Assembly (NCBI GenBank): GCA_024405255.1
Contig: JAKSOY010000211.1
Span: 1-7,847 of the forward strand
DNA from: Kiritimatiellia bacterium
GTDB taxonomy: Bacteria > Verrucomicrobiota > Kiritimatiellia > RFP12 > UBA1067
Direction of reading: 5' to 3'
DNA length: 7,847 nt
Part shown: one piece after another, positions 605 to 7,847 of the stretch
Layout of the letters: each line of letters opens with the position of its first letter
Numbering within the stretch: position 1 is the stretch's first letter
Notes under the pieces: generated by a model
Database searches by the model: none
Told to the model about the DNA's origin: nothing
The model's input: only the letters and a program-made list of their open reading frames with translations
Translations under genes and position numbers: made by a program

Positions 605-634
605 ATTATACCCTACCTTCGTCTGCCTTGGCAA
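605..634 (-). promoter_or_regulatory. Sigma70-type promoter for the 1-563 gene, inside the metH 3' end
   Basis: On the minus strand TTGCCA (634-629) and a perfect TATAAT (610-605) are separated by 18 nt. The expected start near 598 gives a leader of about 35 nt containing the GAAGGAG ribosome site of the downstream gene. The promoter overlaps the last codons and the TAA stop of metH, so the downstream gene can be expressed apart from the methionine operon, although readthrough from metH is also possible because I see no terminator between them. Confidence 0.6.
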
Positions 635-3095
635 GCGCCTCGGCGATGCGCACCGTGCGCATCGCGTCCTTCGCGTAGAAGTCGGCGCCAATCGAATCCG
701 CATATTCCTGCGTCACGACCGCGCCGCCAACGACGGTCCTGCATCCGAGTCCAGCCGCCTTCAGCTGACGGATCGTCTCCGCCATGGCGCCGACGGTCGT
801 CGTCATCAGCGCCGAGAGTCCCACGAGCATCGCGTTCGACGTCCGCGCGGTCTCGACGATCTTCTCCGGCGGCACGTCGCGCCCGAGATCGATCACCGCG
901 AACCCGTAATTCTCGAGGAGCGCGCGAACGATGTTCTTTCCGATGTCATGGATGTCGCCCTTCACAGTGGCGATCACAATCGGCCGGTTCGCGTCTTTTG
1001 TCTCTCGTCTAAGGTCCTCGGCCTGATCAAGGCCTGACGTGGAAGACATTGCGCCCTTCACAACCCCGAACGCCTCGCCCGCCGCATCGGCCGCCATGAG
1101 CAGCTGCGGCAGGAAGACCGTCCCCTTCTCGAAACCGCGTCCGACTTCCTCCAGGGCCGGCACGATGCCGCGCTCGATCACCTCGAGCGGCGCGACACCG
1201 CCCTTCAGCATCGCCGACGCCGACGCGCGCGCATCGTCACGCAAACCGCGGCGGATCGCCGCGGAGAGATTAGAGTCGCCTAGGGCCGAACAGGGTCGCT
1301 GAGGGTCAGTTGTTCCCTTCGACCCTCCTTCGACTCTATTTGACTCTATCCAACGCGCGCAATTCGGATCGCGCCCGAGGAGAACGTCCTCCGCGGCGGG
1401 ATCGATCTCGTCCTTGATCACCGCGGGGTTCGCAATCGCCGCGGAGAGTCCGGCCCTCTTCGCCAGCGCGTACATCGCGTTGTTGAGCGCAGGGCGGTTG
1501 GGGAGCCCGAACGAGACGTTCGAGACGCCGAGCACGGTGTTGACCCCGAGCTCGTCCGTGAGGCGCTTCACGGTCTCGAGCGTGACGAGCGCCGCGTTCA
1601 TGTCGGAACTCACGGCAAGCGTGAGCGCATCGAAGATAAAATCCGATTTCGTGAAACCGTACTTCGCGCCCTCGGCGAGGATGCGCCGCGCAATCGCGAG
1701 GCGACCTTCGCTCGTCGGCGGAATGCCGTTCTCGTCGAGGCACAGCGCGACGATCGCGCCGCCGTAGGTCCTGACGAGCGGAAAGACCGCGTCCATCGAC
1801 TCGCGCTTGCCGTTCACCGAGTTGACGAGCGGCTTGCCGTTCACGTGCCGGAGCGCGCGCTCGAGCGCGGCGGGGTCGGCGGTGTCGATCTGAATCGGAC
1901 AGGTGACGACGCCCTGGACGGACGCGACCGTCGCATCGAGAAGCGCGGACTCATCGAGTCCCGGAACGCCGCAGTTCACGTCGAGGATCCGCGCGCCGGC
2001 CTCGACCTGCTTCACCGCCTCGCGGAGGACATACGCCGTATCGCCCTTCGCGTACGCCTCCTTCAGGAGCTTCTTCCCGGTCGGATTGATCCGCTCGCCG
2101 ATGATGAGACCTGCGTGGGGCTGAAGCATGACGACGGAAGTTCCCGAGGAAACCGTCAGGTCTTTCGTCTTCCGTCTAAAGTCCCCTGCACCGGCAGGAC
2201 GTGAGACATGAGACGCGAGAGACGAGTGGACTTGAGACTTAAGACGCGAGATATGCGCGGGCGTCGTTCCGCAACAGCCGCCGACCACCGAGGCGCCGGC
2301 GCGGACGAGCTTCGCGACGTGTCCGGCGAATTCATCCGGACCGACGGAGAAGACCGTGCGGCCGTTTTCAATTCGCGGGAGTCCCGCGTTGGGTTTGACG
2401 ATGATCGGCTTCGTTGAGATCTTCGCGAGCCGTTCGACGAACGGCAGCATCCGATCCGGGCCAAGCCCGCAGTTGAATCCGTACGCGTCGACGCCGAGCG
2501 ACTCCAGGAGCGCCGCGACGCACTCGGGCGTTCCGCCGGTGAGGAGCTTGCCGTCCTCACCGAGGGCGACCGTCGCGTAAATCGGAAGGCTGCAGTTCTC
2601 CTTCGCGGCGATGACGGCCGCCTTGAGCTCAAGGAGGTCGCCCATCGTCTCGATGACGATCAGGTCAGGTGAAGGTGAGAGGTGAAGGTGAACAGTGGAA
2701 GTTGCAATGCTTATTGTTTCCGCAAACGCCGCCACTGCTTCATCGAAGTCCAGATCTCCAACGGGCTTGAGGAGTCTCCCCGTCGGCCCAATGTCCAAGG
2801 CAATCTTTATCTTCCTCTGTTCACCTTCACCTTTCACCTTCACCTTATTCGCGACTTCGAGCGCCCCTCGAATCACCTTCTCAAGCTCGTACTTCCCGTG
2901 GTACTTCAGGCGGTTCGCGCCGAAGGTGTTGGCGTAGACAACCTGTGCGCCGGCCGCAACGTAGGCACGGTGGATCGCGAGGATGTCGTCCGGACGCTCG
3001 ACATTCCAGTCCTCCGGGGTCTCCCCCGCCCGGAGCCCCCGCTCCTGCAGGAGCGTTCCCATCCCGCCGTCAAGGATCTCAGGCGACAAGTCCAT
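606..3095 (-). CDS. metH: Cobalamin-dependent methionine synthase, without reactivation domain
   Basis: Transfers the methyl group of 5-methyl-tetrahydrofolate via cobalamin to homocysteine, giving methionine in the cytosol. The 829 residues hold, in order: the homocysteine-binding barrel (about 5-283) with zinc ligands Cys209 (GFNC) and Cys274-Cys275 (GGCCGTT); the pterin-binding barrel (about 325-575, GERINPTGKK at 333-342); the cap helices (about 608-682); and the Rossmann cobalamin domain (about 704-825) with the DxHxxG motif, lower-ligand His716, plus SALMTTT and VVGGAVV. The SAM-dependent activation domain of the roughly 1,230-residue E. coli enzyme is absent, as in the short MetH of Thermotoga. 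ATG 3095 overlaps the end of metF by 17 nt and has no obvious Shine-Dalgarno, so translational coupling is likely. Odd features: repeat-like insertions at about residues 84-95 and 132-143 of the first barrel, and long repeat-containing linkers at 283-320, 583-608 and 683-702. The frame stays open through all of them. Confidence 0.95.
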   Translation of the reverse strand: MDLSPEILDGGMGTLLQERGLRAGETPEDWNVERPDDILAIHRAYVAAGAQVVYANTFGANRLKYHGKYELEKVIRGALEVANKVKVKGEGEQRKIKIALDIGPTGRLLKPVGDLDFDEAVAAFAETISIATSTVHLHLSPSPDLIVIETMGDLLELKAAVIAAKENCSLPIYATVALGEDGKLLTGGTPECVAALLESLGVDAYGFNCGLGPDRMLPFVERLAKISTKPIIVKPNAGLPRIENGRTVFSVGPDEFAGHVAKLVRAGASVVGGCCGTTPAHISRLKSQVHSSLASHVSRPAGAGDFRRKTKDLTVSSGTSVVMLQPHAGLIIGERINPTGKKLLKEAYAKGDTAYVLREAVKQVEAGARILDVNCGVPGLDESALLDATVASVQGVVTCPIQIDTADPAALERALRHVNGKPLVNSVNGKRESMDAVFPLVRTYGGAIVALCLDENGIPPTSEGRLAIARRILAEGAKYGFTKSDFIFDALTLAVSSDMNAALVTLETVKRLTDELGVNTVLGVSNVSFGLPNRPALNNAMYALAKRAGLSAAIANPAVIKDEIDPAAEDVLLGRDPNCARWIESNRVEGGSKGTTDPQRPCSALGDSNLSAAIRRGLRDDARASASAMLKGGVAPLEVIERGIVPALEEVGRGFEKGTVFLPQLLMAADAAGEAFGVVKGAMSSTSGLDQAEDLRRETKDANRPIVIATVKGDIHDIGKNIVRALLENYGFAVIDLGRDVPPEKIVETARTSNAMLVGLSALMTTTVGAMAETIRQLKAAGLGCRTVVGGAVVTQEYADSIGADFYAKDAMRTVRIAEALAKADEGRV
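993..1019 (-). repeat. 27-nt repeat copy B, in metH cap/B12 linker
   Basis: A gap-free match of 22/27 to copy A at 2160-2186, and 18/27 to copy C at 3580-3606, by hand alignment. It is translated in frame as EDLRRETKD (MetH residues 693-701), in the linker between the cap helices and the cobalamin domain. Just beside it (1020-1034) is a near-palindrome, GGCCTGATCAAGGCC. Confidence 0.5.
1271..1338. repeat. Nested palindrome in metH pterin/cap linker
   Basis: Outer arms TAGAGTCG (1271-1278) and CGACTCTA (1331-1338) pair perfectly. Inner arms AGGGTCG (1292-1298) and CGACCCT (1320-1326) also pair, with an alternative GAGGGTC/GACCCTC pairing (1301-1307 with 1321-1327). The right side contains imperfect tandem units of 10-11 nt (CTTCGACCCTC, CTTCGACTCTA, TTTGACTCTA). 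It codes for the Gly/Ser/Thr-rich linker around MetH residues 583-608, a spot that tolerates length change. Confidence 0.55.
2160..2251. repeat. Composite palindromic and direct-repeat element in metH Hcy/pterin linker (includes 27-nt copy A)
   Basis: Contains 27-nt copy A (2160-2186, translated GDFRRKTKD). Arms CGTCTAAAGTC (2173-2183) and GACTTAAGACG (2236-2246) form an 11-nt inverted repeat with one mismatch. Inside lies a small perfect hairpin, CCTGC-ACCG-GCAGG (2185-2198). AGACGCGAGA occurs twice (2211-2220, 2242-2251) and GAGAC words recur throughout. It encodes a basic, Ser-rich linker (MetH about 283-312) between the homocysteine and pterin barrels. The patchwork of short words differs from the flanking GC-rich coding sequence. 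Confidence 0.55.
2667..2845. repeat. 35-nt inverted repeat inside metH homocysteine domain
   Basis: Left arm 2667-2701 and right arm 2811-2845 are reverse complements over 35 nt with two mismatches, separated by 109 nt. Each arm is internally repetitive, made of GGTGAAGGTGA units (or TCACCTTCACC on the other arm). Both arms are translated in the metH frame: the right arm as KVKVKGEGEQRK (about 84-95) and the left arm as TSTVHLHLSPSP (about 132-143). Against the Thermotoga-type MetH sequence as I remember it, each site carries about seven extra residues. In the mRNA the arms could form a long stem with a loop of about 109 nt. Confidence 0.8.
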
Positions 3096-4846: not shown

Positions 4847-4876
4847 AGTATATCATATCCTCATTAAAATCGGCAA
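4847..4876 (-). promoter_or_regulatory. Promoter of the mutase-like/metF/metH operon, apparently leaderless
   Basis: On the minus strand TTGCCG (4876-4871), an 18-nt spacer, and TATACT (4852-4847) preceded by TGA, which makes an extended -10. The architecture is the same (TTGCCN-N18-TATANT) as the promoter at 605-634. Transcription should start near 4840, leaving about 2 nt before the TTG at 4838. No Shine-Dalgarno is found in front of that TTG. Confidence 0.55.
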
Positions 4877-4900
4877 GTAGCGCCCTTCTGTTCATATCTA

Positions 4901-4930
4901 TTAGATAACTGTAGATAGGTTTTGATAACT
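4901..4930. repeat. Three phased 10-bp GATA units
   Basis: Three consecutive 10-mers, TTAGATAACT, GTAGATAGGT and TTTGATAACT, put GATA at 4904, 4914 and 4924, exactly one helical turn apart. GATAACT repeats exactly 20 bp apart. The array lies about 25-55 bp upstream of the -35 of the leftward operon promoter, where an activator or an origin protein could bind. No known binding site is recognised. Confidence 0.4.
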
Positions 4931-5027
4931 TCTCCTTGACAAATCTGAAAATTTCAAAAATCCCCCTATTTTTCATTGAAGACACGACGCCCACGCTTTA
5001 CATCGTCGCATAATGTATAATGTATTT

Positions 5028-5036
5028 TTGTTCACA
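5028..5036 (+). promoter_or_regulatory. DnaA-box-like 9-mer
   Basis: TTGTTCACA differs at one position from the TTATNCACA consensus. It overlaps the region where the -35 of the mnmG promoter would lie, so DnaA binding there could also control mnmG. A single near-match can arise by chance in AT-rich DNA. Confidence 0.3.
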
Positions 5037-5052
5037 AAGCGAATAATAATTT

Positions 5053-5061
5053 TGCTATACT
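5053..5061 (+). promoter_or_regulatory. Extended -10 promoter of mnmG, apparently leaderless
   Basis: TGCTATACT is an extended -10 (TGN-TATACT); TTCACA at 5031-5036 is a weak -35 with a 19-nt spacer. Only 12 nt separate the -10 from the ATG at 5074, so the predicted leader is about 6 nt. The sequence before the ATG (CCGTACTCCT) has no Shine-Dalgarno. Confidence 0.5.
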
Positions 5062-5073
5062 ATCCGTACTCCT

Positions 5074-6798
5074 ATGACAGATGAATACGAGCTGATTATC
5101 GTTGGCGGAGGGCATGCTGGTGCTGAAGCCGCATTGGTTGCTGCCCGAATGCGGATTCGGACACTCCTTATAACCTCCCGCAAGGACGCTTGCGCACGGA
5201 TGCCTTGCAATCCGTCAATTGGAGGCCTTGCCAAAAGCCATCTCGTCTACGAACTTGATGCTCTCGGCGGCGAAATGGGCCTCAATGCTGATCTGACAGC
5301 ACTCCAGTCCAAGCTTCTCAATCGAAGTCGAGGACCAGCCGTCTGGGCGACGCGTTGCCAGTGTGCGAAAACGGAATACACGCAACGTATGCAGCACGTC
5401 ATCGCAGAACAGGAGAACTTGACCCTTCTTGAAGATTCTGTCATTTCAATTTTAACGGTACACGACTCTGTTTGTGGAGTAAAAACTGAGCATTATGGAG
5501 ATATCAGGTCTTTTTCTGTTATTATAACATCTGGCACTGCACTTCGAGGACGAATTTGGATTGGAAAAGAGTCAAAAGACTCTGGTGGCGATTCGCGTCC
5601 AGCTGTTAACCTCCTTTCCAATTGTCTTTCCGACCTTGGATTTACATTGATTCGGCTGAAAACGGGCACGCCACCTCGCCTAAAGGCCTCTTCGTGTGAT
5701 TTTTCAAAGTGTGCTCGACAGGATGGTGAACATCCGCGTCCATTGTTCCACGTGGAACAATCCGCCAAAAATGTTCCACGTGGAACATTGCCTGAACTCC
5801 CTTGCTGGCAGACCCATACAACAGTAAAAACCCACGACATTATTCGAGAAAACCTCCCTTTGTCGGCCTTGTATGGCGGATCAATCAGAGGTACAGGTGT
5901 GCGGTATTGCCCATCCATTGAGGACAAAATCGTTCGGTTTAAGGATGCTGAACAACACCATGTCATGCTTGAACCGGAGGATTCAGCAGGAACAATTATC
6001 TATCCAAATGGTCTTAGCTGTTCGCTCCCGCGCGGCATTCAAGATCTAATGGTTCGTTCTGTACCTGGTCTTGAGTGCGCCGAATTCATCGCCTATGCTT
6101 ATGCAATTGAATATGACGGCATTGATGCACGAGAACTCAAACACTCTTTAGAATCCAAACGGATTCACGGGCTATTTTTTGCGGGACAGGTCAATGGCAC
6201 AACTGGATATGAGGAGGCTGCGGCACAGGGAATTATGGCTGGAATCAATGCAGCATTTATGATTAATGAGCAAGAACCTCTCATTCTCAGTCGTCAAGAT
6301 GCGTATATTGGTGTGATGATTGATGATTTGGTGACCAAGGGAACGGATGAACCTTATCGGATCTTCACAAGCCGCGCCGAACGCCGCCTCCTCCTCCGCC
6401 AAGACAATGCTCGCTATCGTCTTCTTGAAGCGGCCCGCCGCGTCGGTGTTATCTCTCAGACCGTCCTAAAGCGACGTGAGGCTGAAATTGATTATATTAA
6501 CAAGGGGAAAATGGAAGAAGGGGAGTTTGCTTCCCTGAATCAAGAAATAGCAATTATGCGTCATTATGCTCCTTATATTGAGCAGGAGCGGAAAGCCGCT
6601 GAACGGGCAAAACTAGACGAATCGATTCGTATTCCGCAGTGGCTGGACTATGACCAGTGCATTTCAGTACGGTTTGAGAGTCGACAGCAACTTAAGAAAT
6701 ATCGCCCAGAAACCCTTGCGCAGGCCGCTCGAATTCCGGGTGTGAATCCAGCTGATGTGGCCGTTCTCGCCATCATCATCAAGCGCGGCCATATCTGA
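5074..6798 (+). CDS. mnmG: tRNA uridine-5-carboxymethylaminomethyl modification enzyme (FAD subunit)
   Basis: With MnmE, MnmG installs the carboxymethylaminomethyl group at wobble uridine 34 of certain tRNAs. Visible features: the N-terminal FAD loop [10 protein letters not shown] (11-20), [15 protein letters not shown] (43-57), [12 protein letters not shown] (192-203), [15 protein letters not shown] (275-289), [17 protein letters not shown] (371-387), [20 protein letters not shown] (410-429) and the C-terminal [15 protein letters not shown] (543-557). The start matches the family start exactly ([14 protein letters not shown]). At 574 residues it is about 45-55 shorter than most MnmG; much of the missing length appears to come from the helical region about 465-520. 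The variable loop at 223-239 is encoded by two parS-like palindromes (FHVEQ and VPRGT). The gene is visibly AT-richer than the metH side. It is co-directional with dnaA, 111 bp downstream. Confidence 0.95.
5742..5761. promoter_or_regulatory. parS: parS-like centromere site 1 (ParB binding)
   Basis: A perfect 20-bp palindrome whose central 16 bp, TGTTCCACGTGGAACA (5744-5759), is the form of chromosomal parS known from Pseudomonas and one symmetric base pair away from the Bacillus/Caulobacter TGTTTCACGTGAAACA type. ParB binds such sites near the origin to segregate the chromosome. It is translated as part of an MnmG loop (FHVEQ). Confidence 0.85.
5770..5789. promoter_or_regulatory. parS: parS-like centromere site 2 (ParB binding)
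   Basis: A second perfect 20-bp palindrome with the identical 16-bp core (5772-5787). Flanks differ from site 1 (AA/TT instead of AT/AT), so this is not a simple 20-bp duplication. The centres are 28 bp apart and 12 bp separate the cores. It is read in another codon phase than site 1 (VPRGT instead of FHVEQ). Confidence 0.85.
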
Positions 6799-6870
6799 CT
6801 TGTAAACAGAAAATGTTAATAACTTGATGACATGTGTTGAATTCTTGTCACCCAAAGAGAGGACATTTTA

Positions 6871-6879
6871 TGCTATATT
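6871..6879 (+). promoter_or_regulatory. Extended -10 promoter of dnaA
   Basis: TGCTATATT is an extended -10 of the same TGC-TATANT form as the mnmG promoter. No good -35 stands at 16-19 nt; TTGTCA (6845-6850) is 23 nt away. The predicted leader is about 24 nt with only a weak ribosome site (AAGCGGA). Confidence 0.4.
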
Positions 6880-6880
6880 T

Positions 6881-6903
6881 TCCGCCGTTGAAAAACAAGC
6901 GGA
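6881..6903 (+). other. Small hairpin just before the dnaA start
   Basis: TCCGC (6881-6885) pairs with GCGGA (6899-6903), and TTG (6888-6890) with CAA (6896-6898) around an AAAAA loop, with CG bulged. The right arm is the only Shine-Dalgarno-like stretch and ends 6 nt before the ATG. If transcription starts near 6886 the left arm would not be in the mRNA, so an RNA role depends on the true start. Confidence 0.3.
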
Positions 6904-6909
6904 TTTAAA

Positions 6910-7847
6910 ATGACAAACCAAACCATAGACATTTCGTCGAAGGAAATGTGGGAGAAGGCGAAGACGATTTATCTCGCAACGCTCCAGTCGGCGGATGAGA
7001 AGAGCCAGGTCGACAGATATCTTTCGATGATCACATCGGTTGCAAGCAAGGCCGGAAACTTCACGATCTATACGGCAAATTCATATGCGGCTGATTATCT
7101 GAGGGACAATTACTCGGACCGTCTGCGCAAGTGCCTTGAGCTCGTCTCCAATGGCCTTGAGATCAACCTTGACTTCAAGTTCGACGTCCATTCAAAGCCG
7201 GCGATTGTCGTTCCCACGAAAAACGCGGGATCCGATGCGAAGCCCGTGCGCGTGTCAACCTTTGTCTCAACACTGCCACTCAACGACGAGTACACCTTCG
7301 ACGAATTCGTCCGCGGGCCCTCGAACAGCTTTGCGCTCGCTGCGGCAATGGCAGTCGTGAAGAACCCGGGAAAGAGCGGCTACAATCCTCTTTTCATCCA
7401 CGGCGGCACGGGTCTCGGCAAAACTCATCTCATGCAGGCGATCGGAAACGAGCTTCGCCGCCTTGATCCTTCGCTCGCCATTTGCTATCTGACAGCCGAG
7501 GAGTACCTGAACGAGTACGTCAACTACATGAAGGACAACAACGTCCCGGCGTTCAGAAACAAGTATCGCACGGTCGACGTTCTGCTGCTGGACGACGTTC
7601 AGTTCTTCCAAAAGGGTAAAGCCATCCAGGAGGAGTTCTTCAATACGTTCAACGCCCTGCAGCAGGCGAAGAAACAGATCGTCATGACGTCCGACGTCGC
7701 ACCGAAGAACCTGCCGGCAATCGAGGCAAGGCTTATCTCGCGCTTCGAAGGAGGTATGCTCCAGGAAATCGAGTCACCGAGCTATGAAACTCGTCTTGCG
7801 ATTCTAAAGAAGAAGGCCGAAGGCATCGGCATCAACGTGCCTCTCTC
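6910..7847 (+). CDS. dnaA: Chromosomal replication initiator DnaA, C-terminal part outside window
   Basis: Binds DnaA boxes and ATP to open the origin and load the helicase. 312 codons from ATG 6910 run to the window edge without a stop. Domain I covers about 1-90, followed by a short variable linker (about 93-122). The AAA+ domain opens with YTFDEFVRGPSNSFALAAA (128-146). Walker A is GGTGLGKTHL (165-174; most DnaA have GGVGLGKT), Walker B LLLDDVQFF (225-233), sensor 1 is around VMTSD (258-262), and box VII RLISRFEGGM (274-283) carries the arginine finger Arg278. The DNA-binding domain IV lies beyond the window. An in-frame ATG at 6946 has its purine run too close, so 6910 is preferred. It sits 111 bp after mnmG and co-directional with it, close to the parS sites. 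Confidence 0.95.
   Translation, partial: MTNQTIDISSKEMWEKAKTIYLATLQSADEKSQVDRYLSMITSVASKAGNFTIYTANSYAADYLRDNYSDRLRKCLELVSNGLEINLDFKFDVHSKPAIVVPTKNAGSDAKPVRVSTFVSTLPLNDEYTFDEFVRGPSNSFALAAAMAVVKNPGKSGYNPLFIHGGTGLGKTHLMQAIGNELRRLDPSLAICYLTAEEYLNEYVNYMKDNNVPAFRNKYRTVDVLLLDDVQFFQKGKAIQEEFFNTFNALQQAKKQIVMTSDVAPKNLPAIEARLISRFEGGMLQEIESPSYETRLAILKKKAEGIGINVPL

Follow-up and report, generated by a model that had tools for sequence, protein, structure and literature searches.

Two palindromes inside the mnmG gene of a Kiritimatiellia bacterium are very probably parS sites, i.e. ParB loading sites kept within a coding sequence next to dnaA, a "translated centromere", a reading that we draw from sequence comparison. 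Moreover, among related genomes the mnmG array has probably been respelt at least three times (TGTG in two lineages, GTTT in one), every respelling being accompanied by a corresponding change of ParB, and would then be a natural record of re-coding. The window, by which we mean the whole stretch of 7,847 nucleotides that was analysed, holds the following features:

5074..6798, + strand: mnmG (gidA), host gene of both sites (TIGR00136, 686.7 bits; homologues; solved MnmG chains match)
5680..5802, + strand: DNA of the variable-length MnmG stretch hosting the sites, between the conserved TGTPPR and CW.THT
5744..5759, + strand: putative parS site 1, 16-bp core TGTTCCACGTGGAACA (exact match; all 27 mnmG genes compared use the same F-H-V-E codons)
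5772..5787, + strand: putative parS site 2, core TGTTCCACGTGGAACA again (exact match; second motif in the same loop of relatives)
6910..7845, + strand: dnaA, 5' part, cut off by the end of the window, a marker for where the origin presumably lies (TIGR00362, 304.6 bits)

Each core extends to a perfect 20-bp palindrome, spanning 5742-5761 for site 1 (ATTG...CAAT) and 5770-5789 for site 2 (AATG...CATT), with 28 bp between the centres and 1.12 kb from site 2 to the start of dnaA at 6910. The two exact cores within perfect palindromes in mnmG, about 1.1 kb before dnaA, are as an earlier note on this DNA had described them, and so is the reading of the pair in two codon phases, the codons being TTG TTC CAC GTG GAA CAA (L-F-H-V-E-Q) over site 1 and GTT CCA CGT GGA ACA (V-P-R-G-T) over site 2. 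The chance expectation for the window is 0.01 matches with up to three mismatches, and two exact copies are present; none of 200 dinucleotide shuffles of the window yielded two core matches, even with three mismatches allowed. The window contains no match to the DnaA box TTATCCACA at up to one mismatch. The earlier note had also taken the different outer flanks as a sign that each site is selected separately. In relatives the bases that directly flank the 16-mer are variable, so that the length of 20 bp and the flank argument carry little weight, and by this measure the conserved unit is the 16-mer and not the 20-mer. The low-GC stretch at window positions 4850-6909 is a composition island at the presumed origin, with a GC content of 49% in mnmG and 33-34% in the flanking gaps versus 62-64% in the four preceding genes. 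Farther upstream, a MetH-like protein (window 606-3095, 829 amino acids) matches positions 7-861 of a methionine synthase model of 1182 positions, so its C-terminal part seems to be missing; short tandem repeats in its gene (7-, 6- and 13-bp units at 2198-2220, 2667-2692 and 2820-2846) recall the low-complexity spacers of some MnmG loops.

Among the nearest MnmG proteins (the listed best 120 of 7999 matches), all 120 carry [LMV]FHVE[QH] at the same place and 113 carry a second exact motif in the same loop, VPRGT or CSTWN, the latter (8 of the 120) being the same palindrome in a third codon phase; at least three motifs occur in six. A six-segment alignment and the patterns PAVWATRC and PRPLFHVE, the second of which favours carriers of the peptide and not particular codons, led to 30 genome loci, and 27 of these (L001-L027) are close kin of the window MnmG. 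They are labelled Kiritimatiellae/Kiritimatiellia, Verrucomicrobia, Lentisphaerae or uncultured bacterium, with one labelled Bacillota (L020), and many stem from rumen and gut samples. Throughout the 26 relatives' genomes reached via these loci, L020 being set aside, the exact core occurs one to six times per genome and each copy lies within mnmG (26/26); positions were listed for 22 genomes, and for the other four (G004, G016, G021 and G023) the genome-wide count equals the count in mnmG. In these relatives the core is therefore restricted to the origin region and does not occur all round the chromosome, an outcome that by the earlier note would have refuted its reading.

Wider sampling gave a similar picture. 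An order-wide search at the DNA level found the core in 87 of 144 genomes, and all 30 further loci taken from these 87 have at least one core well inside mnmG. Four of the 30 (L046, L047, L049 and L054) have an extra core outside the mnmG frame, so mnmG is the main and not always the sole place; in another four (L048, L050, L051 and L053) an extra core stands at the 5' end of the stop-to-stop frame, where it perhaps precedes the start codon. The class was sampled by the best 30 loci by MnmG score among 193 genomes, a choice in which a high score may favour short loops: 27 of 29 genes from outside the order carry the core inside mnmG, most class genes have a single site (23/29), and in one (L104) no recognised site was found in mnmG. 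At the level of the phylum the core was found in 126 of 230 genomes and a reversed control pattern in 2 of 230; when 30 core-bearing genomes were picked, none of them from the class sample, 27 had the core inside mnmG, the exceptions being L236, L237 and L238. A pair inside mnmG had been considered less usual; since the core is common in mnmG across both the class and the phylum samples, the pair of the window is ordinary for its clade. In 8 of the 27 phylum genomes (L229-L235 and L239) the core lies approximately 95 codons from the mnmG 3' end and outside the loop, so that the site is known from two positions in mnmG.

The 57 order genomes without the canonical core included 17 with a usable mnmG locus, three with fragments only (L088-L090) and 37 whose mnmG matches, if any, were short or due to chance; with mnmG so often unmatched, the origin region is frequently absent from these assemblies. 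Other palindrome-like sites were found in the mnmG loop of 13 of the 17 usable genes, and no recognised site in the remaining four (L081, L082, L084 and L086), of which L082 and L086 are partial genes. The loop contains TGTGCCACGTGGCACA in G103, G043 and G032, TGTGCCACATGGCACA twice in G116, TGTTCCACATGGAACA twice in G105 and GTTTCCACGTGGAAAC in G028, G127, G092, G111, G078, G113, G068 and G109, the last sequence often being embedded in TGTTTCCACGTGGAAACA, i.e. with one extra T per half-site. Over 161 order genomes TGTGCCACGTGGCACA was present in four (G314 added) and GTTTCCACGTGGAAAC in ten (G311 and G313 added), and in 14 of these 14 genomes the variant sites are on the mnmG contig, inside mnmG wherever the gene was read. 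The respelt arrays translate as CATWH and VSTWK peptides. G311 was considered as a second origin of GTTT-type sites and rejected: at 93% identity between its mnmG and the G078 gene, it was not counted separately. In L072 (G105) as in L071 (G116), both sites have CCACATGG as an asymmetric centre and are oriented alike, and a directional spelling of these sites is possible.

ParB (TIGR00180) scored over the cut-off in 25 of the 26 relatives, as well as in 24 of 28 and 30 of 34 genomes of two further sets, so the absence of parB, which the earlier note had named as fatal to its reading, is not what the relatives show. The two ParBs that were checked contain ParB_N and HTH_ParB domains. From 64 parB loci, 62 ParBs were aligned by HMM and placed in a tree, L147 (the first of two in G105) and L262 having been dropped; the latter belongs to G050, a canonical-core genome in which the sole ParB obtained is of another type with Q at aligned place 178. 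At residue 178, in Caulobacter numbering assigned by motif spacing, 56 of the 62 proteins have N and the other 6 have H, and the carriers of H178 are all five TGTG-type genomes (G043, G032, G103, G116 and G314) together with G090, whose mnmG was not found. One extra helix-turn-helix residue, accompanied by Q162Y and R181G, occurs in 9 of the 62, namely in six GTTT-type genomes (G078, G113, G111, G068, G028 and G127) and in three where mnmG was not found (G143, G102 and G112). A usable ParB was lacking for four of the ten GTTT genomes, with no match in G092 and G109, another type in G313, and G311 left out. Neither N178H nor the insertion occurs in any of 41 ParBs from canonical-core genomes, a class assigned from the core in mnmG for 33 and from its presence in the genome only for 8. 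The ParB of G105, the genome with TGTTCCACATGGAACA sites, has N178 and is without the insertion.

Sites of the TGTG type are thus paired with N178H in five of five genomes from two separate lineages, and those of the GTTT type with the one-residue helix-turn-helix insertion in six of six genomes from which a chromosomal-type ParB was obtained. The odds of random matching over the 52 ParBs with a canonical, TGTG or GTTT site class are 3.8e-7 and 4.9e-8, figures that ignore kinship, and the GTTT genomes belong to one lineage. The H178 proteins fall into two widely separated sets on the ParB tree, and a forced single H178 clade was rejected (log-likelihood 106 lower, AU p 2.5e-94, on the premise of a group defined in advance of the tree). 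In the MnmG tree, too, the TGTG genomes fall into two sets, and the GTTT genomes group together (SH-aLRT 74). As the split appears on both trees, TGTG with N178H either has two origins or disappeared from many intervening lineages. In the re-coding that we consider probable, the matching changes would be N178H in parallel and a one-residue insertion corresponding to one extra base pair per half-site. This joint change of site and ParB ties the palindromes to ParB more closely than resemblance does.

The parB gene lies apart from the sites. In 22 of 22 relatives with both contigs listed, parB and mnmG are on different contigs. The 64 parB loci (L031-L040, L147-L171 and L241-L269) cover up to about 3.5 kb, with about 1.5 kb on each side at most; within them a ParA Walker motif, sought as a simple pattern, was found near parB in one of 64, no canonical core with up to one mismatch and neither of the variants was found, and the layout of a parABS operon, in which parA adjoins parB and parS is nearby, was not seen. 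With parB on another contig and the ParA motif at a single locus, the arrangement differs from the textbook parABS operon. In both of the loci that were checked, parB is followed by a gene for an M28 peptidase.

Palindromes near two genes that need control could also be operators of a transcription factor acting on mnmG or dnaA and not centromere sites. We consider this very unlikely: the sites are well within a coding sequence, separate lineages show joint variation of site spelling and ParB reading head, and the core is at most two bases away from the 16-bp palindromic parS consensus TGTTTCACGTGAAACA as quoted in a passage of PMC10197239, TGTTCCACGTGGAACA differing from it at two symmetric positions.

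The arrays themselves were analysed in 28 order mnmG genes, which contain one exact core in 1 gene, two in 16, three in 6, four in 2, five in 2 and six in 1, at spacings of 28-480 bp. The largest array, in L017, has 6 exact cores and 7 when one mismatch is allowed. All three codon phases occur among the sites of relatives, which are strung together in frame as arrays, and the GTPPR-to-RYCPS stretch reaches up to 329 residues without a stop (L045, among 13 genes displayed). A further site is present in L024, L026 and L027 within a second insertion before the TGTPPR block and the main loop; the mnmG frames of these three loci reach about 800 codons. For helical phasing of the spacings, R was 0.12 over 72 spacings and 0.41 over the 31 spacings below 60 bp, and we claim no phasing. 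The loop was placed by sequence alignment to solved MnmG, and an AlphaFold2 model of the window MnmG (32-row alignment, mean pLDDT 54.5) was discarded. In this clade there is a second variable-length stretch in the C-terminal part of MnmG, at alignment columns of approximately 660-800, in which no parS peptides were found in the clade protein alignment. The low-complexity spacers and near-identical tandem units of some loops (L017 and L021) would suit an origin of the sites in a mobile or minisatellite element that inserted into mnmG and then multiplied, with ParB binding irrelevant, an explanation that is likewise very unlikely, given that the exact 16-mer is found outside mnmG in none of the 26 relatives, that the spacers between the sites of L045 differ from copy to copy and that class genes mostly have one site (23/29).

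Codon usage bears on whether selection acts on the peptide or on the DNA. We compared 27 mnmG genes (the window and L002-L027, L001 being left out for a frameshift) over the 300 columns in which the amino acid is kept in at least 90% of the rows. On average the commonest codon had a share of 0.51, and a single codon was used in all 27 genes at only 4 of the 300 columns, i.e. F, H, V and E of site 1, encoded by TTC CAC GTG GAA, the four whole codons of the palindrome. This pattern argues that it is the DNA of site 1 on which selection acts. Retention of the peptide with synonymous loss of the palindrome, foreseen as a possible refutation, is the opposite of what is observed, and the proposal that the protein accommodates the DNA signal is borne out by the three codon phases, the expansion of arrays and the changed peptides of the respelt arrays (CATWH and VSTWK). 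That the palindromes are a by-product of an F-H-V-E peptide needed by MnmG, their symmetry being incidental, is hardly credible despite the presence of [LMV]FHVE[QH] in all of the best 120 MnmG matches, because codon invariance against the mean share of 0.51 contradicts it, this DNA yields VPRGT and CSTWN when translated in other phases, the respelt arrays encode other peptides and the motif is absent from the two solved MnmG chains aligned.

ParB is a CTP-dependent clamp that loads at parS. If the palindromes are parS, a ParB dimer would grip each 16-bp site by its helix-turn-helix, and the bound ParB would close as a clamp dependent on CTP and slide over mnmG and dnaA, whereby the origin region would gain a partition and SMC-loading complex. 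From established ParB work it is likely that the protein would load at mnmG and then slide across the origin region. The MnmG loop would merely tolerate the site and selection would maintain the DNA, from which it would follow that any codon phase is allowed, that sites may be copied in frame into arrays and that they may be respelt when ParB changes. A segregation signal would then be kept in a housekeeping gene across the class, and probably beyond it, as an overlap of centromere and coding sequence in which the protein gives way to the DNA. Since sites and ParB appear to have been switched together more than once, these genomes could provide naturally matched pairs with which to test how a centromere can change together with its reader while the chromosome is retained. 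Furthermore, the mnmG core could serve as an easy marker of the origin in uncultured Kiritimatiellia.

The occurrence of parS within coding genes is already known, passages of a Caulobacter study placing parS sites in essential or high-fitness-cost genes (PMC5815017). In the open-licence literature, as far as titles, the starts of abstracts and some passages go, we found no report of parS inside mnmG/gidA or in Kiritimatiellia, and none of translated parS arrays or of an N178H or insertion switch. According to passages of Jalal et al. 2020 (PMC7383237), who worked with engineered ParB/Noc variants, the switch between parS and NBS lies in residues 173, 179, 184 and 201 of two paralogues, and N178 and Q162 are among six parS-contacting residues conserved between ParB and Noc. 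The canonical ParBs of the present clade deviate from this published list at S172 and R204, and the list is therefore not absolute.

Like the chromosomal parS of Bacillus subtilis, Caulobacter and Pseudomonas, the sites described here are 16-bp palindromes near TGTTTCACGTGAAACA, clustered near dnaA, and ParB is encoded in the genomes of the relatives as it is in those ParABS chromosomes. Unlike them, the exact cores of the relatives are all in one gene, mnmG, where they often form a translated in-frame array that uses more than one codon phase, and a different contig carries parB. As in the divergence of ParB and Noc described in the passages of PMC7383237, the spelling of the site and the helix-turn-helix residues shift together; in contrast to that case, the proteins are orthologous ParBs, and the shift involves N178H, in two lineages, or an insertion with Q162Y and R181G.
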